Shown here piece by piece: positions 47,464-57,665 of a stretch of DNA of 64,000 nt. A program made the translations under genes and the position numbers. Numbering within the stretch: position 1 is the stretch's first letter; each line of letters begins with the position of its first letter. The notes below the pieces were generated by a model. The model ran no database searches, was not told the origin of the DNA, and worked only from the letters and a program-made list of their open reading frames with translations. Source of the DNA: Nitratiruptor tergarcus DSM 16512 (GTDB taxonomy: Bacteria > Campylobacterota > Campylobacteria > Campylobacterales > Nitratiruptoraceae); NCBI RefSeq assembly GCF_027946175.1, contig NZ_AP026671.1, forward strand, positions 1,302,001 through 1,366,000. Reading direction: 5' to 3'.

Positions 47464-47506
47464 ATGTCCCGAGTGGGATTCGAACCCACGACCTTCGGAT
47501 TAGGAA
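47464..47506. repeat. Left att site (displaced tRNA-Arg 3' half)
   Basis: 43 bp match 57,591-57,633 with two differences; the inner 32 bp (47,475-47,506) are identical. It encodes the anticodon-to-3'-end half of tRNA-Arg only, so it is not a working tRNA gene. Confidence 0.92.
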
Positions 47507-47613
47507 AATTAAGGTCTACCTAAGATTAAGATTGATTTCACTTGATGATAACGTATTTATGGGGATTCTTATTTTCTTATAGATTGCTTAAAATGGATAT
47601 ATTTTGACCAAAA

Positions 47614-47636
47614 GAGGTCACCCAAGAGGACACCCA
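47614..47636. repeat. Left arm-type direct repeats
   Basis: GAGGTCACCCA (47,614-47,624) and GAGGACACCCA (47,626-47,636) are spaced 12 bp apart, matching the pair at the right end in sequence, spacing and orientation. Likely integrase or excisionase arm sites. Confidence 0.7.
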
Positions 47637-47805
47637 TTACAAAACTTAAATACTAAATTGCTACATTTTCTACCTATAAGATGAGGTGATATCAGCCTTC
47701 CTTAAATCTATAAAGAATCACAATGTACCATACCGCAAACTTTGCCCAATCGAGTATTTAACCTTAAAGGATATCCATACATATCAATGCAAATCAATCG
47801 TATGA

Positions 47806-47842: not shown

Positions 47843-48103
47843 ATGATAAGCGCAAATGATTTAAAAGTAAAAGGCATCAAAGCAATAGAAGCTGAACTCA
47901 AAAAGAAGCACGAGGCTATTATCACTTTTAGAGGGAAGCCAAAGTTTATTGTTTTGCCTTTAGAGGAGTATGAAAGAGCCAAAGAGCTTGATAAGCGCTA
48001 TATTGAGTTTTTAGAAGAAAGAGCATTGGGAAAAGTCAAAGAGGTAACAGCAAAAGAGCATATACAAGAGCTTATGAATGAAATACAAAATACTACAGAG
48101 TGA
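47843..48103 (+). CDS. Phd/YefM-type antitoxin
   Basis: The 86-aa protein has the Phd/YefM pattern: N-terminal ISANDLKVKGIKAIEAEL, then a beta strand with FRGKPKFIVLPLEEYERAK, then an acidic C-terminal tail that would wrap the toxin. It likely also represses its own promoter. It overlaps the toxin start by 26 bp. Being just inside the att site, the pair may stabilise the element. Confidence 0.85.
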   Translation: MISANDLKVKGIKAIEAELKKKHEAIITFRGKPKFIVLPLEEYERAKELDKRYIEFLEERALGKVKEVTAKEHIQELMNEIQNTTE

Positions 48104-48353
48104 AAAATACCTCAAAAGGGCTGCAAAGTTTTTTAAAAAGCATCCCAATCTTTTACCAAAATACCAAAAGGTCATAGAACAGCTGGAAAATGACCCATAC
48201 TATCCCTCTTTGAGACTACATAAGCTCAAAGGAGATCTCAATGAGTACTACAGCGTATCGATAGATATGCGCTATAGGATTGTTATAGACCTCATTATCA
48301 CAGATAAAGAGATAATCTTACTCGATATAGGAAGTCACGATGAGGTGTATTGA
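48078..48353 (+). CDS. RelE/ParE-superfamily toxin (YafQ-like)
   Basis: The 91-aa protein has YKILQSEKYLKRAAKFFKKH at the start, a central LHKLKGDLNEYYSVSI strand pair, MRYRIVIDL and a C-terminal DIGSHDEVY, the usual ending of RelE/YafQ-type mRNA interferases. RelE-type members cut mRNA on the ribosome; I infer the same here but ParE-like gyrase inhibition cannot be excluded. Confidence 0.85.
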   Translation: MKYKILQSEKYLKRAAKFFKKHPNLLPKYQKVIEQLENDPYYPSLRLHKLKGDLNEYYSVSIDMRYRIVIDLIITDKEIILLDIGSHDEVY

Positions 48354-48388: not shown

Positions 48389-49494
48389 TTGGCAATAGAT
48401 AATACAGCTAAAACGAAAATAGCCCCTAACCTTTATCTTATTGGAGACTACAAAAAAGAGCAGCCTACCAAGTTTGTATTGGACTTTAGACACCTCAAAA
48501 AGAGATACCGCAAGGTGGTCACTATCAATAATCCTCTATGGGATAAGCGCACACGCATAAATGAAGCTAAAAGACTGCTGCAAGAGTATAAAGAAGAAGT
48601 AAGACAGGAACGCAGACCAGATGAAAAAATAACCATTACACAGCTATTTAATCTCTACATATCGCAAAAACCGTCCACTTCATGGACGCAAGAGCAAAAG
48701 CGGTTTTTTGATAATCATATCCAACCGCATATTGGAAGCAGACGAGCCATTGACCTTAAGCCTTTTGAAGTAAGAAAAATAATAGCCAAAATGGATGCTG
48801 ATGGATACTCTAAGGCGCATCAGGCAAAAGTTAAGCGTATTCTCAATCCTATGTATAAATTTGCCATAGAAAACGACATACTCATTAAAAATCCTATAGA
48901 AAGGATTATTATAAAAGTCCCGCTACAACGCAAAACCATTACGAATGCTGCCCAAAAGTTTATCGCAGTATATGACGCTATTAAATCTATCTATAAAGAC
49001 GATCCATACTATCAGGCTATCTTTTTATTTGGACTATTTGGCAGACGCAAAAATGAAGTGCTGCATCTCAAATGGGAAGATGTAGATCTCATCAATGGCT
49101 ACTATTGGCTACAAAAGACCAAAGCAGAGTAAAGCAGCGATTTAATCTACCACCAGTCATAATGGAGCAGCTGCTGCGGATACCAGATGAGCGGAAAAGC
49201 TATATATTCAAGTCACCTATCAAGCCAGATCAACCTATACAGGAGATAAAGAGACAGATTAAAAAGGTAAGAAAAGCAAGCGGTATAGAAGAGTATAAAT
49301 TTCATGCCATGAGAAATTATCTCGTAACAGCTCTTTACGAAAAAGGTATACCTACTCCAATACTTAGCCAGCTACTGGGACACCTCAGCCCCGACACACT
49401 CAAACACTATTTGAGTATAGACACCTATAAAGCGAGTGAAGAGGGTAATAAAGAGGTTTATAAGCTATTAAATTTAGATGAATTTGGATTGTAA
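48389..49494 (+). pseudogene. Tyrosine-recombinase integrase, frameshifted
   Basis: The TTG start at 48,389 has GAGGT upstream. The first frame (to 49,132) holds the DNA-binding and core-binding domains and the first catalytic Arg (GRRKNEVLHLKW). The rest, with HAMRNY and LGHLSPDTLKHY (His, Arg, His, Tyr), continues in the -1 frame from about 49,126 to 49,494. A one-base deletion near 49,129 explains both frames. No slippery heptamer is apparent at the junction. Either the element can no longer move by itself or the read has an error. Confidence 0.88.
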
Positions 49495-49510
49495 AGAAAG
49501 CGAGGTAACG

Positions 49511-50458
49511 ATGACTAATAAAGAACTCAAAAAGCTAAAAGAGAATTTATTTAAAAGGGATCTATGTATCTATAAGGATATTGAGAAAGAATTAAAAAGG
49601 CTACAAAGCAAAGAGCTACGAGTAAGCTATTTTTACCAACAAATAAGGGATAGGAAACAATTAGAATTTTCTCTTTCATTTAGAGCCTCAGATACCAAAG
49701 AATTTAAAACAATTGCTGAACTTGCAACAAGATATTTAAATGAAAAATGCGAGGAGCTGCCATTAAGAAAAATTAATTTACTCCCTTTAGAGGATAAAAA
49801 ATACTTGCTTTTACTTTTAGAATATTTATTCTTAAAACATCATTATGAAGAAGAAGGGGCATACTTCGAGAGAAATATAGCAGTTGATTTTATAAGTTTG
49901 CATCAAGATGTAATAGGTGATAAAAATATCAATTTAAAAAATATACAGGAAGTAGGAAATTTCTACAATACTTTATCCTATCCAATAGATGGTAAAGAAA
50001 ATTATAAAAAAATGGCAGACACATTAACCAATGTTAATTTTTTGAACCTTATAAAAGTAAGCATCTGGAGAGAATCAACACCCAAAAGTGCCTATGTAAA
50101 TATAGATTTTTCACAACCATTAGAGGTGATAATAGAGGTAATTAAAAAAATAAAAGAGAAAATAGACAATGACACTCAAAATACCCTAACACCTAATATT
50201 TTTGAAGCATATTTAGGTAAAAAAATAACTCAAGAGCCAACACCTCTTAATGAATTACTTTCATCACGAGAGACAATTTTTACAATAGAAGAAAAATTAA
50301 CAGATTTAATTTATGTATTTGACTGCAAAAAGCTCAACATGACCCATGAATCCATTGCAAATAATTTATATGACTATTACCTCGATAAAGGCAAACAAAT
50401 AGAACTAACATCACAACTAAATAGAGTGCAAAAATACAATAACTTCCTCTTCAAATAA
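49511..50458 (+). CDS. Unknown element protein
   Basis: 315 aa from the ATG at 49,511, with GAGGT upstream; the longer frame from 49,478 overlaps the integrase. It is charged and helical, Lys/Glu/Leu-rich, with no motif I recognise. A possible role is replication initiation or regulation, suggested only by the repeat cluster directly after its stop (50,462-50,528). Confidence 0.7.
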   Translation: MTNKELKKLKENLFKRDLCIYKDIEKELKRLQSKELRVSYFYQQIRDRKQLEFSLSFRASDTKEFKTIAELATRYLNEKCEELPLRKINLLPLEDKKYLLLLLEYLFLKHHYEEEGAYFERNIAVDFISLHQDVIGDKNINLKNIQEVGNFYNTLSYPIDGKENYKKMADTLTNVNFLNLIKVSIWRESTPKSAYVNIDFSQPLEVIIEVIKKIKEKIDNDTQNTLTPNIFEAYLGKKITQEPTPLNELLSSRETIFTIEEKLTDLIYVFDCKKLNMTHESIANNLYDYYLDKGKQIELTSQLNRVQKYNNFLFK

Positions 50459-50602: not shown

Positions 50603-50818
50603 ATGACAACTATTCCAAACACATCTACAAACATACAAGACCTACAGGCTAAAGAGTTTCTATCACCAAAAGAAGTGGAGCTACTTTATGGCTTCAAAGA
50701 GAACACACAGGCTAAGTGGCGTATGCAAGGACTTATCCCTTATAGGAAGATTGGCAAGTTTATCAGATACCACCATCAAGAACTTAAAGAGTGGATGAAT
50801 AAAGGGCGGATAGCCTAA
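50603..50818 (+). CDS. AlpA/excisionase-like helix-turn-helix protein
   Basis: The 71-aa protein has a MerR-like winged HTH of the small excisionase type: FLSPKEVELLYGFKENTQAK, then IPYRKIGKFIRYHHQELKEW. AAAGGAG is upstream. Such proteins bend att DNA for excision or activate integrase and replication genes of satellites. Confidence 0.85.
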   Translation: MTTIPNTSTNIQDLQAKEFLSPKEVELLYGFKENTQAKWRMQGLIPYRKIGKFIRYHHQELKEWMNKGRIA

Positions 50819-51784: not shown

Positions 51785-51995
51785 CCTCAACAGCCTCATT
51801 GAGGCAAGAGGCGATATAGAATTTACAGCTGAGACTATCAAAATGATAGTGGCAAAGATGGAAAAAGAGAATGTCAAAGTAAGCTATCGCCTTGTATTGG
51901 ATAGATTAGCCGATATGCTCGATAGAGCCTCATTAACACTATGGAACATAGAATCAAATGAGATGGAGAGAGACAATGAATCTCAAAGAGTTTAG
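51771..51995 (+). CDS. Small unknown protein of replication operon
   Basis: 74 aa from the ATG at 51,771, with AAGGAAGG upstream. Helical, no Cys, no known motif. It overlaps both neighbours, so it is translated as part of the operon. Confidence 0.65.
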   Translation: MKTPNLNSLIEARGDIEFTAETIKMIVAKMEKENVKVSYRLVLDRLADMLDRASLTLWNIESNEMERDNESQRV

Positions 51996-52257
51996 AGAGC
52001 AGATAAAGCAAAGCTTGGATCGTGAAAAAGTGGCGGCGATGCTGCAAGCATTAGGATATGAGGTTAACAGAGATTACAAATTTAAAATCAGGGATGAAAG
52101 AACGCCATCATCCTCTATCAGGAGAGATGGCTACATCAAGGACTTTGGTAGCGGATGGGGAGGCGATATCGTTGCATTTATCCACGAACACCATAACACA
52201 CCACTAAAAGAGGCTACCCTTTGGGTGGCTCAATGTCTGGGGATAAAGTATGAGTAA
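51976..52257 (+). CDS. CHC2-like primase N-domain protein without zinc ligands
   Basis: 93 aa from the ATG at 51,976, with GGAGAGA upstream. The segment RDERTPSSSIRRDGYIKDFG followed by GGDIVAFI aligns with the DnaG zinc-finger domain (FHNEKTPSFSV ... CFGCGxxGNAIDF), but every zinc-ligand position is non-Cys; its only Cys, C87, lies outside. I infer a primase DNA-binding domain that has lost zinc. It overlaps the TOPRIM gene by 8 bp, as if a DnaG-like protein had been split. Confidence 0.75.
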   Translation: MNLKEFREQIKQSLDREKVAAMLQALGYEVNRDYKFKIRDERTPSSSIRRDGYIKDFGSGWGGDIVAFIHEHHNTPLKEATLWVAQCLGIKYE

Positions 52258-53098
52258 CCTACCTCATCCAATCGATCTCACCCAACCGCTACACAACACA
52301 ACACCGAGCCAAAATTATACCAATAAAGAGGAAAAGCCACGCTTTGATTTGAATGAGTGGCATAGCAATTTTAAAAAAGCGTTGCAAAAGCAAGATCATA
52401 TAGCAATCACAACACCTATACTGCCAGATGACTTTATCAACCCAACACCTATGATGTATGCGTTGATAGACAGAGACATTTGGAGACTGCCAGTAGGCAG
52501 AAAAATAAAGGATAAGTATTTGGGCTTTAGCAATAAATATAAGAGTTTAACCATATCTCTCTTTAGAGCTGATGAGGTGAAAGCAATCTGTATTAGAGAA
52601 GCAAAAGACAAAGATGGCAATCTTATAAAATGGAAAACCTATGGAAGCAAAAGATATATCCCTTATAGGATCTTTGATGAAGAAGATCCTACTATCTTTG
52701 TAGGATATGGCATTGGTGAGTTTTTGCTTTTTGAACTCCTGGAGCTTAACTACATGGTGCTTCAAAGCGACAGCATAGCTCATAGCCTTGCAAACAATCC
52801 ATATACGCCAGGTATCAAAGAGAGATACATATTTGCTTTGCTTGATAACGATGACAGCTGCAAAGCAACTATAGAGCATATTCAACATCACTATAGAAGC
52901 TGCAGAGTCTATCCCATCGATTTTGAGAATATTTTGGATAAAGAGCTGCCAAAAGGTTATGACTTCAGAGACTTTTGCAACGAAAAAGCAAGAGAGATAA
53001 GAGGTGATGAATATTTTGCCAATCCTATAGAAGTAAAAGAGGCAATTATCGAAACGTTGGCAAATGAAATTGAAATTCTTACAGGGGCGAGGAAATGA
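52250..53098 (+). CDS. TOPRIM-domain protein, primase-like
   Basis: The 282-aa protein has an N-terminal part of about 145 residues like the region before TOPRIM in phage primases, then a TOPRIM core: E157 in GYGIGEFLL and the D199-N-D201 pair in ALLDNDDS, followed by GYDFRDFC resembling the KDWND motif. It probably makes primers together with the upstream CHC2-like protein and downstream helicase. It overlaps the helicase gene by 4 bp. Confidence 0.8.
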   Translation: MSNLPHPIDLTQPLHNTTPSQNYTNKEEKPRFDLNEWHSNFKKALQKQDHIAITTPILPDDFINPTPMMYALIDRDIWRLPVGRKIKDKYLGFSNKYKSLTISLFRADEVKAICIREAKDKDGNLIKWKTYGSKRYIPYRIFDEEDPTIFVGYGIGEFLLFELLELNYMVLQSDSIAHSLANNPYTPGIKERYIFALLDNDDSCKATIEHIQHHYRSCRVYPIDFENILDKELPKGYDFRDFCNEKAREIRGDEYFANPIEVKEAIIETLANEIEILTGARK

Positions 53099-54597
53099 GT
53101 TTAAGACTAAAAGAAGCAATCAAAAAGGCACAATCATTAGAAGATTGTGCCTCTGATGTGCCAGTAGGCAAATCAAGCAAAACAATTGATAAAAGTATAC
53201 CGCATAAAAATCAAAACATCATCAAAAAAGAACTCATAGAAAAACTATTAAGCGATATTGAAAAGATTGATATTAATGAATTATGCAAAAAGTATGGATG
53301 GATACCAACCTATGATAAAGATGGCAATGAAAAGCCACCATTACAAAAACATATCAAAGTTGCAATTATTAAGCATTTGATAGATATTTCAAAGCGAAAA
53401 GATTGGAAAATAGCAAAGGATGGAGATTATATTTACATATATAACGGGCAATACTGGGTACCATTTATCAAGGACGATATCATTTACTTCTTAGAGCAGT
53501 TTGCTATAAAAGCGGGAGTTTCAATTATAGATGCTGCGGATGAGCAGTTTTTGGAAAAATTATATAAGCAGTTGCAAAAAGAGAGCTATTTTAATAATAA
53601 AAACTTGACTAACAAAAACCTCATCAATTTACAAAATGGAACATTCGATATTACAAAATTACAATTAAAAGGGTTTGATTATCAAGACTTTTTGACATAT
53701 CAGTTGCCTTATCCTTATAAAGAGGGAGCTACCAACACTTTATGGGAGAAGTTTTTGGATGAAGTATTACCAGATAAAGAGACACGAAGAACACTACAAG
53801 AGGTGCTGGGAAGCATATTTATCAAAGATATAAAGTTAGAGTATATCTTCTTTTTATATGGCAAAGGACAGAATGGAAAAAGTGTAGTTATGGAAATTCT
53901 CACTGCATTATTAGGAAAAGAGAATATTAGCAACTTTTCACTTGACCAGCTCATGGAAGAGCATAATAGAGCTATGATTAAAGATAAGCTTGTAAATTTT
54001 GGAAGTGAGACCGATCTTAAAAAAATCAATCCAAACATCTTCAAAGCCTTAGCAAGTAACGAGCCAATACAAGCGAGACTAAAATATGGTAATTCCTTTA
54101 TGATGGAAGATTACGCAAAATTGATATTCAATGTTAATAAATTCCAATTTAATGATATTGAGCATACAGAAGGATTTTTTAGGCGGTTTTTGATAATTCC
54201 ATTTGATGTAAAGATACCAGATGAAAAAGTGGATAGAAAACTCCATCTTAAAATCATCAATGCAGGCATGGAAGGAGTTTTGAATTGGATCATAGAGGGA
54301 GCTACAAGAGTAATAGAAAATGAAGATATTTTTATATCCGATAAGTGCAAAATAGCAAGGGATAAGTTTTTCAAAGAAATAGATAATGTAAGACAGTTTA
54401 TAGAAGATAACGGCTATCAGCCAAGTATCTATAATCGTATGAAAGCTTCAGAGCTTTATGGAGAATATAGAAACTATTGCGCACAAAATAATTTTAAAAG
54501 CGTTAGCAGCAGAACCTTTAAAGAGAGACTGCAAGCAATAGGTATTGAATGGAAAAAATTTAGCGATACAAATTACTATTTAATAGAAAAAAAATAA
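53095..54597 (+). CDS. SF3 (D5/P4-type) replicative helicase
   Basis: The 500-aa protein has a D5_N-like region (about 90-230), then the SF3 ATPase with Walker A GKGQNGKS (256-263), an acidic motif NFGSETD, sensor IFNVNKFQF and the arginine finger in FFRRFLIIPF, and a C-terminal winged-helix-like region ending SVSSRTFKERLQAIGI. It lacks the primase/polymerase half found in P4 alpha or in the primase-polymerase of the vent phage NrS-1; the priming activity seems to be on the separate TOPRIM protein. Confidence 0.92.
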   Translation: MSLRLKEAIKKAQSLEDCASDVPVGKSSKTIDKSIPHKNQNIIKKELIEKLLSDIEKIDINELCKKYGWIPTYDKDGNEKPPLQKHIKVAIIKHLIDISKRKDWKIAKDGDYIYIYNGQYWVPFIKDDIIYFLEQFAIKAGVSIIDAADEQFLEKLYKQLQKESYFNNKNLTNKNLINLQNGTFDITKLQLKGFDYQDFLTYQLPYPYKEGATNTLWEKFLDEVLPDKETRRTLQEVLGSIFIKDIKLEYIFFLYGKGQNGKSVVMEILTALLGKENISNFSLDQLMEEHNRAMIKDKLVNFGSETDLKKINPNIFKALASNEPIQARLKYGNSFMMEDYAKLIFNVNKFQFNDIEHTEGFFRRFLIIPFDVKIPDEKVDRKLHLKIINAGMEGVLNWIIEGATRVIENEDIFISDKCKIARDKFFKEIDNVRQFIEDNGYQPSIYNRMKASELYGEYRNYCAQNNFKSVSSRTFKERLQAIGIEWKKFSDTNYYLIEKK

Positions 54598-54621: not shown

Positions 54622-54893
54622 CGCCCATTTCGTCCACAATATATCTAAACAGCCCAATTTTAGGGCATTACTGATATGGATGTAAGATAAAAAAACGTCC
54701 ATAAATCGCCCATAATACACCCATAAACAATCCATATAGCCAACCTTCTATATGATGAAATCATTTCAATATAAATAAATGGACGTTTGCTGGATGATAA
54801 ATGGACGATTAATGGGCGCAAAAAATATGAATCGTCCATATTTAAAACTACCATAAAATCGGTATTTCAAAAGGTTTATGGACGATATGGACG
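54622..54893. repeat. Iteron cluster, candidate replication origin
   Basis: ATGGRCG-type motifs occur rightward at 54,779, 54,801, 54,812, 54,879 and 54,887, and inverted (CGYCCAT, one CGTCCAC) at 54,622, 54,631, 54,696, 54,707 and 54,833. Left copies are all inverted and right copies mostly direct, diverging from an AT-rich centre with the palindrome TGAAATCATTTCA (54,756-54,768). It lies just after the helicase gene. Confidence 0.75.
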
Positions 54894-55327: not shown

Positions 55328-56423
55328 TGCATAAGTTCAAACACATATGGCACTCTGAGAGGGAGAGTGAGGAGTGCAAATCAAATACACGTTGCCAGGG
55401 CTCAAAGGATATAAAAGATTAGAGAGGATATACTACAATTCGCTTATGATAAGCGAAGAGGCAAAAAGAAGAAAAAAGATATTGGAGTTTTGGGAAAAAT
55501 ATGGACTAGCAGCAACAACTGAAGCTTTTGGAGTAAGCAGAAGAACACTCTTTCGATGGAAAAAGAGTTTCAATGATGCAAATGGCGATATAAAAGCCTT
55601 AAATCCAAAATCACGCAAACCAAAAAGAGTAAGAGAGTCAAAAGTACCAAGAGAAGTTATTAATGAGATAAAGAGATTAAGAAAAGAGTATCCCAATATC
55701 GGCAAAGCAAAACTCTACCACCTGCTTAAACCTTTTTGTGAAGAAAAAGAACTTAAAACTCCCTCGGAATCCACAATAGGAAGAATAATCGCAAAAGCAC
55801 CAGATACAATGAGACTTTTTCCCTACCGCATCGATACAAAAGGAAAAGTGAAACCAAAAAAGAAGACACAAAAAAACAGAAAACCAAAAAACCTCAAATC
55901 CAAACCATTTGAACTGTGGGCAGTCGATACCATCCAAATAGTATCAAACGGTATAAAACGATATATCCTTACTATGATTGACCCACTCACACGTATTGCA
56001 TTCGCAGTGGCGATTCCATCCAAAAGAGCAAGACATACTGCATATGCTCTTGAAGCTTTAATTGATGGAATAACTTCCATCAAACAAAAACGTAAACTTG
56101 CAATTCTTTCAGATAATGGCAGTGAATTTAAAAAAGAGTTTGATGCTCTGCTTGAACAAAAAGGCTTTACACACTACTGGACATATCCAAGGAGCCCTAA
56201 AATGAATGCACACAATGAAAGATTCAATAGAACAATTCAAGAACAATTTATTCAATACTATGAAGATTTACTCTTTACAGATTTGGATGAATTCAATAAA
56301 AAATTAGCAAAATGGCTCATCGATTACAATACCAAAATACCACACTCTTCTCTTAATTTTAAATCTCCGGTACAATACCTTCTTGAAAATCATTATGAGT
56401 GCCATATGTATTGGACTTATACA
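55328..56423 (+). mobile_element. IS481-like insertion sequence, complete
   Basis: 1,096 bp with TG-starting inverted repeats: left 55,328-55,355 (28 bp), right 56,397-56,423 (27 bp), about 24 matching positions with one gap; the inner 13 bp are identical. It is flanked by 5-bp TGATC duplications and carries one transposase gene. It sits in the non-coding part of the element, so is probably harmless to it. Confidence 0.9.
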
Positions 56424-56426
56424 TGA
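55374..56426 (+). CDS. IS481-like DDE transposase
   Basis: 350 aa from GTG at 55,374, with GAGGA upstream (an ATG at 55,446 would give 326 aa). An N-terminal HTH (GLAATTEAFGVSRRTLFRW) is followed by the integrase core with D185 (LWAVDTIQ), D247 (ILSDNGSEF) and E282 (NAHNERFNRT), a DD34E spacing. The frame runs through the right inverted repeat, and its TGA stop (56,424-56,426) belongs to the target duplication. Confidence 0.92.
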   Translation: MQIKYTLPGLKGYKRLERIYYNSLMISEEAKRRKKILEFWEKYGLAATTEAFGVSRRTLFRWKKSFNDANGDIKALNPKSRKPKRVRESKVPREVINEIKRLRKEYPNIGKAKLYHLLKPFCEEKELKTPSESTIGRIIAKAPDTMRLFPYRIDTKGKVKPKKKTQKNRKPKNLKSKPFELWAVDTIQIVSNGIKRYILTMIDPLTRIAFAVAIPSKRARHTAYALEALIDGITSIKQKRKLAILSDNGSEFKKEFDALLEQKGFTHYWTYPRSPKMNAHNERFNRTIQEQFIQYYEDLLFTDLDEFNKKLAKWLIDYNTKIPHSSLNFKSPVQYLLENHYECHMYWTYT

Positions 56427-57177: not shown

Positions 57178-57592
57178 CTCTATTTACCAACTTTATTCAC
57201 TCCTACTCTTTAAGGTTAAAAAAATAAAGATGTTTGAAAAGCATACTTTTCAATACTATTAGCCCCATTTTTTACCGCTTATAGACTTCAAAAATCTAAG
57301 TTTAAGGATACGAACCTTAAATGGATTGATTTTTATCTCTATTGATTAAGATTTATAACCATTTATAGATTTAGAAGCTTAATTCTTAAAAAAATGATAT
57401 AGCTCTTTTGATTTATGATAATTGCTTATGATGTATATGTATTGATTTCGTTACTAATAATAGCATAATTCTATAATCATAGGAAAAGTTTATGAGTAGT
57501 TACAAGTTGTGATTAAAAAGAGGACACCCAGGAGGACACCCACCGCTTTCTTAAACTTTTCAAAACCCTCTAAAATATCGATTTTATGGTAT
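57178..57592. other. Non-coding right end of the element
   Basis: Very AT-rich, no convincing gene. It contains a TTTAAGG/CCTTAAA hairpin (57,301-57,321) and the right arm-type repeats. Confidence 0.6.
57520..57542. repeat. Right arm-type direct repeats
   Basis: GAGGACACCCA at 57,520-57,530 and 57,532-57,542, again at 12-bp period, same orientation as the left pair. Confidence 0.7.
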
Positions 57593-57633
57593 GTCCCGGG
57601 CGGGATTCGAACCCACGACCTTCGGATTAGGAA
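57591..57633. repeat. Right att site
   Basis: Partner of 47,464-47,506. It forms the 3' half of the intact tRNA-Arg, from the anticodon to beyond the 3' end, and was therefore supplied by the element. Confidence 0.92.
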
Positions 57634-57665
57634 TCCGATGCTCTATCCTGCTGAGCTACCGGGAC
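57593..57665 (-). tRNA. tRNA-Arg (anticodon CCT)
   Basis: 73 nt on the minus strand, acceptor GTCCCGG/CCGGGAC, anticodon stem TCGGA/TCCGA with loop TTCCTAA (anticodon CCT, codon AGG), T-loop TTCGAAT. CCA is not encoded. The 5' half is host, the 3' half came with the element. Confidence 0.95.

Follow-up and report, generated by a model that had tools for sequence, protein, structure and literature searches.

A candidate split DnaG-type primosome in a satellite-like element of Nitratiruptor tergarcus

Results

The stretch of DNA analyzed here (the window) comprises 64,000 nucleotides, positions 1302001–1366000 of the 1.94-Mb genome of the vent bacterium Nitratiruptor tergarcus, and all coordinates below are window positions. 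On its plus strand lie three overlapping genes encoding a 93-amino acid (a.a.) CHC2-like protein (51976–52257), a 282-a.a. TOPRIM protein (52250–53098) and a 500-a.a. SF3 helicase (53095–54597); the first two genes overlap by 8 bases and the last two by 4 bases. The original prediction that CHC2-like, TOPRIM and helicase parts are split over three proteins here was confirmed, but it had missed that the motif-I glutamate of the TOPRIM protein is replaced (Y153). Below, L-numbers denote the compared loci and G-numbers the genomes (G000, the window's own genome; G003; G011).

The 93-a.a. protein matched the Pfam family Zn_ribbon_DnaG over residues 39–92 (E-value 3e-4; 20.9 bits, below the gathering score of 24.9), and the profile of its family matched zinc-domain structures of DnaG (1d0q, 1e-10; 2au3, 2e-7). 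Its AlphaFold model, with a predicted local distance difference test score (pLDDT) of 94 and a predicted template modelling score of 0.85, had only two significant fold matches, 1d0q (E-value 4.4e-4) and 2au3 (7.4e-4), both with a probability of 1.00. Structure prediction and profile search thus both find the DnaG zinc-domain fold. In the alignment, the ligand positions of the DnaG pattern C-P-x-H...C-x-x-C are occupied by F, R, D and S, so that zinc binding in the manner of DnaG is impossible, and the flanking pattern (E-R-T-P-S and D-F-G-S-G-W-G-G-D) is intact, as expected from the original description of a zinc-domain pattern kept without any zinc ligand. The ratio of nonsynonymous to synonymous substitution rates (dN/dS) of the gene was 0.04–0.17; all dN/dS values reported here are simple pairwise estimates, and part of the dS values are near saturation. 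A Nif11 match (24.1 bits; cut-off 23.8) was rejected as a helix look-alike, as it covered residues 4–33 only, occurred in few members and belonged to a protein with the DnaG zinc-domain fold. A search among phages with the 93-a.a. protein gave a single weak partial match.

The 282-a.a. protein alone had no match in Pfam, PHROG or NCBIfam. The best fold match of its model (pLDDT 88) was a T7 primase fragment (1nui; E-value 3.6e-5, probability 1.00), followed by structures of T7 gp4 and Twinkle, and the TOPRIM family profile matched 1nui weakly (E-value 0.048). The match to 1nui indicates a TOPRIM fold with an N-terminal primase subdomain, in line with the fold that the original prediction had assigned to this protein. 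We refer to this TOPRIM type as type A. Its motif I reads Y-G-x-x-E (residues 153–157), its DxD motif is D199-N-D201, and D238 and D241 lie further downstream. The glutamate of the EGxxD motif is therefore replaced by Y153 in the window, and among split proteins of type A this position is Y, F or S, with the exception of L037 (EGMGE). In contrast to this variable position, D199, D238 and D241 are kept across the type A alignment of 16 rows and D201 nearly so, and the +4 residue (E157 in the window) is glutamate in nearly all rows. The TOPRIM glutamate and the DxD motif are critical to metal binding and catalysis (PMC6755086, PMC5517523), and in the OLD nuclease the +4 glutamate (E404) supports the second metal (PMC6755086). 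These residues suggest that the active site of the window's TOPRIM is not wholly lost and that its first metal site is altered, and E157 may compensate for the lost motif-I glutamate. Since this TOPRIM lacks the invariant glutamate, the window copy may or may not prime. The dN/dS of the TOPRIM gene was 0.11–0.23. Searches with the TOPRIM protein gave a chance-level piece only among phages and no match among plasmids. The split pair with the intact EGMGE (L037:7340-8412) is a possible intermediate, in which the change from D to E at +4 preceded the loss of the first glutamate.

In the 500-a.a. protein, which matched PHROG DNA primase families, Pfam and NCBIfam identified D5_N (a.a. 101–225), a DUF5906 ATPase core (254–364) and a Pox_D5-type C-terminal domain (431–488). 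The P4-family primase_Cterm profile TIGR01613 scored 166.3 bits against a cut-off of 108.7. Pfam and NCBIfam found no primase domain within the N-terminal 100 a.a., as the original prediction had anticipated, and no archaeo-eukaryotic primase (AEP) or PrimPol domain anywhere in the protein, and a phmmer search against the PDB returned no match. These domains identify the protein as an SF3 helicase of the initiator type that lacks a primase half.

Adjoining the 3' end of the helicase gene is a cluster of iterons (54622–54893), a proposed replication origin, with 11 copies of ATGG(A/G)CG or its reverse, allowing at most one mismatch, in both orientations. This segment holds 7 of the 22 exact TGGACG/CGTCCA occurrences of the whole window. 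A k-mer test of the cluster gave P = 0.005, and control regions had no comparable repeat cluster. Most relatives likewise carry a cluster of short repeats behind the ATPase gene, with a motif that differs in nearly every element (GTGTATCGA, GGGTGGA, TAGTATCAC, AGACCCTA, TGGTGACAA, CGGGACA, GGGGACAAT and CACTCACCC). In L075, transposase genes lie directly behind the ATPase gene, at the expected origin site.

The relatives are spread sparsely over the order Campylobacterales (Campylobacterota). Type A TOPRIM proteins, fused forms counted, were found in 13 of 399 genomes from this order, and further contigs encoding them come from Helicobacteraceae, Sulfuricurvum, Sulfurimonas and metagenome-assembled genomes of Campylobacterales. 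No relatives were found in IMG/VR viral contigs, either by protein or by alignment. The three genes always follow one another in the order CHC2-like, TOPRIM, ATPase, and the part of the cassette that does not change is the CHC2-like gene. Because the CHC2-like/TOPRIM pair recurs in many genomes with dN/dS values of 0.04–0.23, the pairing is not due to chance, and the low dN/dS argues against decay of the two genes.

The ATPase, in contrast to the constant CHC2-like subunit, belongs to different families: D5_N/SF3 in the window and L030; VapE-like/DUF5906 in L010, L033 and L077; DUF3987 in L012, L034 and L075; and AAA_25/RepA-like in L014 and L037. Two further proteins at the ATPase position behind a type A TOPRIM (L035:6505-7884, 460 a.a.; L036:3109-4497, 463 a.a.) have no Pfam match and are accompanied by strong GGGGACAAT repeats; they possibly represent an undescribed initiator family. 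The TOPRIM body is exchanged as well. A second element in the window's own genome, L075 (G000:C1:244000-262000), combines a type B TOPRIM with a DUF3987 ATPase, and a similar element, L076, is present in G011 of the same genus; both have the same CHC2-like protein together with the strongly diverged type B. Type B has the motifs EGFHD and DID, and type C, found in L077, has EGLKN and DGD (Pfam Toprim_3, 1.4e-5); both types occupy the same gene slot as type A and have the glutamate intact. Types A and B are homologous by profile comparison (97.3% probability); for type B, Pfam was uninformative and a profile search of PDB chains gave no match.

We compared the cassettes at the points where the bodies change. 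Nucleotide homology sets in close to the CHC2 start codon and breaks off within the ATPase gene where the motor changes, at +46 nt (window/L010), +84/+78 (L010/L012), +100/+106 (L012/L011) and +114 (L030/L013). ATPases of different families have their first 16–38 residues in common, and their bodies align at background score. The cross-family tail scores were 66, 88 and 166, against maxima from shuffled sequences of 39, 45 and 44. In the window, the helicase tail comprises the first 16 a.a. (53095–53142, plus strand), in common with the VapE-like ATPase of L010 (66 versus 39). The TOPRIM proteins behave similarly: types A and C have their first ~30 residues in common (163 versus 44 in shuffles; homology ends at +86 nt), types A and B have the common tail MSxHLPPPIDLT...NYTS (z-scores 5–12), and a search with the type C TOPRIM in G003 matched residues 1–31 only. 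The corresponding tail in the window's protein comprises residues 1–29 (52250–52336, plus strand), of which 1–5 and 12–29 have a pLDDT below 50 in the model. From their disorder or their sharing between different bodies, both N-terminal tails are candidate docking peptides.

The same domains also occur in single chains. L006 encodes a CHC2-like domain fused to a type A TOPRIM (346 a.a.), L040 a zinc-free CHC2 fused to a canonical TOPRIM (EGEKDA, DYD) and an SF3 helicase (846 a.a.), and Campylobacter fetus plasmids, retrieved by a plasmid search with the 93-a.a. protein, a zinc-free CHC2 and a TOPRIM with EGEKD in one chain. Because a zinc-free CHC2 stands beside a canonical TOPRIM in L040 and C. 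fetus, zinc loss alone is no sign of a dead primase. Two other single chains were noted. L039:3905-6766 has zinc cysteines, a TOPRIM-like part with seemingly degenerate motifs (FGEKD, ADN) and an SF3 helicase, and is a further example of changed TOPRIM residues. L038:4830-7577 (915 a.a.) joins a zinc-bearing CHC2 to a TOPRIM resembling type A (SGIAE) and to a C-terminal half whose helicase type is unclear.

The trio and its iterons lie within a 10,127-bp insertion bounded by a 43-nt direct repeat, 95% identical, of the 3' part of tRNA-Arg(CCT). The left attachment repeat is at 47464–47506 and the right one at 57591–57633, within the tRNA gene (57592–57665). The element also encodes a Phd-type antitoxin and a YafQ/RelE-type toxin (47843–48353, plus strand; NCBIfam), a tyrosine integrase (48389–49494, plus strand; Pfam, PHROG) and an AlpA/excisionase-like HTH_17 protein (50603–50818, plus strand; Pfam, 1.3e-9; PHROG excisionase/regulator, 6.4e-7), as well as a coiled-coil protein. 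The integrase gene is frameshifted near 49130 into 247-a.a. and 140-a.a. frames. Since the copies in L030 and L077 are whole, the window's copy of the element is probably immobile. No capsid gene was found in the element by the open-frame list and domain searches. Integrase, AlpA, primase/helicase and attachment repeats without capsid genes make up a set like that of phage-inducible chromosomal islands (PICIs) and their minimalist counterparts (PICMIs), the integrase of the window being frameshifted. A second complete element, L077 (8.3 kb), is bounded by a tRNA-Leu repeat. The host genome has an intact DnaG.

Other features of the element include a 326-a.a. protein of no named family after the integrase (49478–50458), whose C-terminal part resembles L032:1572-2552 by eye, and an insertion sequence (IS)-like transposase with an rve domain (55374–56426) between the iterons and the right attachment site. 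Paired GAGG(A/T)CACCC repeats just inside both attachment sites (47600–47650 and 57520–57550) are likely integrase arm sites, as are the GGACGACACCC pairs at both ends of L077.

Discussion

From the observed folds, gene order, element ends, iterons, body swaps, tail retention and purifying selection, we infer docking, origin binding and priming, and consider it somewhat probable that the trio forms a primosome of the DnaG type, split over separate proteins, which serves satellite-like elements and whose exchangeable parts dock via N-terminal tails. The trio and the downstream iterons would then serve to replicate a small, satellite-like element integrated in the chromosome. Its primase would be of the DnaG type and split over two subunits, a constant CHC2-like one without zinc and a catalytic one with the TOPRIM fold. 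The flexible N-terminal tail of the TOPRIM protein would hold the CHC2-like subunit, replacing the covalent linker of DnaG, and the helicase's own N-terminal tail would hold the primase pair. The C-terminal domain of the SF3 helicase may bind the iterons, allowing the helicase to open the origin and load itself; the docked pair would make primers for extension by the host polymerase. Attachment through short tails would make the TOPRIM and motor bodies exchangeable. The catalysis of the window's TOPRIM would be either altered, with E157, D199, D201, D238 and D241 remaining, or lost. A combinatorial primosome, in which one constant CHC2-like subunit takes up swappable TOPRIMs and ring ATPases via tails and which also primes without the glutamate by using E157 at +4 with the DxD motif, appears doubtful.

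The original prediction suggested that this could be a distinct priming system. P4 alpha is a single chain, and NrS-1 uses a PrimPol (AEP) domain unrelated to TOPRIM; the system differs from both, but its chemistry is not an unrelated one and it does not stand isolated, being a DnaG-type primase cut in two that occurs in many Campylobacterota elements and has single-chain forms in the same order. P4-family proteins share the order of zinc/primase part, SF3 helicase and C-terminal DNA-binding domain, and the 500-a.a. protein passes TIGR01613, whereas the window system consists of three chains, is zinc-free and has the TOPRIM glutamate replaced. Like the NrS-1 primase-polymerase, it would serve priming in a Nitratiruptor mobile element, and DUF5906-type motors occur in its family, but its fold is TOPRIM instead of PrimPol. 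T7 gp4 and Twinkle provide the best fold match of the TOPRIM protein, and metazoan Twinkle also lacks zinc ligands, but they are single chains with a RecA-type (DnaB-like) helicase. DnaG has the CHC2 and TOPRIM folds and a helicase as a separate protein; in contrast, its two domains are joined and bind zinc, and the host has its own. Work by Corn et al. in 2005 (cited in PMC10359460) is said to offer a precedent for primase zinc domains working in trans.

The closest parallel in layout is CCPol-MP-Cch2 of the staphylococcal cassette chromosome mec (SCCmec): a mobile island with a split primase (a polymerase and a small partner) followed by a D5_N/Primase_Cterm helicase, with iterons directly 3' of the helicase gene and a helicase type that differs among elements (PMC7581432, PMC10061031). 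The three proteins bind one another, the helicase requires the iterons just downstream, and the origins of SCCmec and of Staphylococcus aureus pathogenicity islands share this placement of iterons just behind the helicase gene (PMC7581432). SCCmec, however, uses an A-family polymerase and an OB-fold single-stranded DNA-binding partner, unlike the CHC2-like and TOPRIM folds here. The defining genes of PICI/PICMI satellites are integrase, AlpA and a DUF3987/DUF5906 'primase', and these satellites are likewise small integrated elements without capsid genes (PMC10803314). The window type differs in sitting at tRNA genes, not fis, and in having separate CHC2-like and TOPRIM genes. Motor exchange is also known, with RepA, DUF927, DUF3987, VirE and D5 behind AEP primases (PMC5862659). 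A split primase and motor exchange are thus already known separately, and a search of the open-access literature gave no account of CHC2 and TOPRIM as a split pair that keeps its tails.

For the window's own copy, the chief alternative is that the pair plays a part like that of Twinkle and makes no primers, which we regard as possible but rather unlikely: the degenerate pair would aid helicase loading or hold single-stranded DNA while the host DnaG primes. The loss of both the zinc ligands and the TOPRIM glutamate in the window type, the presence of Twinkle among the TOPRIM fold matches and the intact host DnaG are consistent with this, and animal Twinkle kept its domains despite losing the cysteines and primase activity (PMC3610141). 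However, the remaining acidic motif residues are all invariant in type A, types B and C keep the glutamate in the same slot beside the same zinc-free partner, and L040 and the C. fetus plasmids have a zinc-free CHC2 beside a canonical TOPRIM. A different doubt concerns the tails, whose sharing could be a by-product of recombination, with breakpoints that fell early by chance and no docking role. Since the tails directly adjoin the conserved gene before them, linkage alone would preserve them, and the few dN/dS estimates for them range widely, up to 1.4 in a highly diverged pair. We nevertheless consider this explanation unlikely. The motor was exchanged separately at least three times and the TOPRIM body twice, each time with an in-frame break in the short stretch behind the tail; in addition, the model shows the TOPRIM tail as disordered, which would be expected of a peptide that takes up its fold when bound to a partner.

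Two other explanations carry little weight. TOPRIM domains are also present in OLD nucleases and Gabija, and a defence or nuclease module would fit that domain; the CHC2-like partner, the SF3/VapE/DUF3987/RepA motors and the iterons all indicate replication instead, and the same motor set lies behind primases of other mobile elements (PMC5862659), making this highly improbable. Least credible of all is that the trio represents decayed fragments of a once-fused P4-alpha-like primase-helicase in a dying element, although the frameshifted integrase and the IS-like transposase might suggest it. We rejected this idea, since the genes are split in this way, with identical overlaps, in many genomes, dN/dS is low, reflecting strong purifying selection, and the trio has no stops or frameshifts.

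Several observations weigh against the split primosome with docked, interchangeable parts. The window's TOPRIM type lacks a glutamate that has been described as invariant and critical (PMC6755086). L034 and L076 show only a weak iteron signal. Significant tail sharing is confined to cassettes of Nitratiruptor and its sister genus, distant members keeping at most an LPxP start, and tail retention could result in part from recombination breakpoints and linkage. In L077, a tail-like 37-a.a. peptide (L077:9044-9160) is separated by a stop codon from the ATPase that follows; it may reflect a frameshift, a nonsense change or a separate peptide.

How the primases and helicases of mobile elements pair and re-pair is poorly understood. 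The natural swaps described here, in which one small subunit is found with three different TOPRIM bodies and with motor bodies of four or more kinds and the connecting tails are kept in closely related cassettes, make it testable whether short N-terminal tails specify primosome assembly. They also make it testable whether the TOPRIM motif-I glutamate is indispensable to priming, and N. tergarcus itself has both types in its genome, A without the glutamate and B with it.

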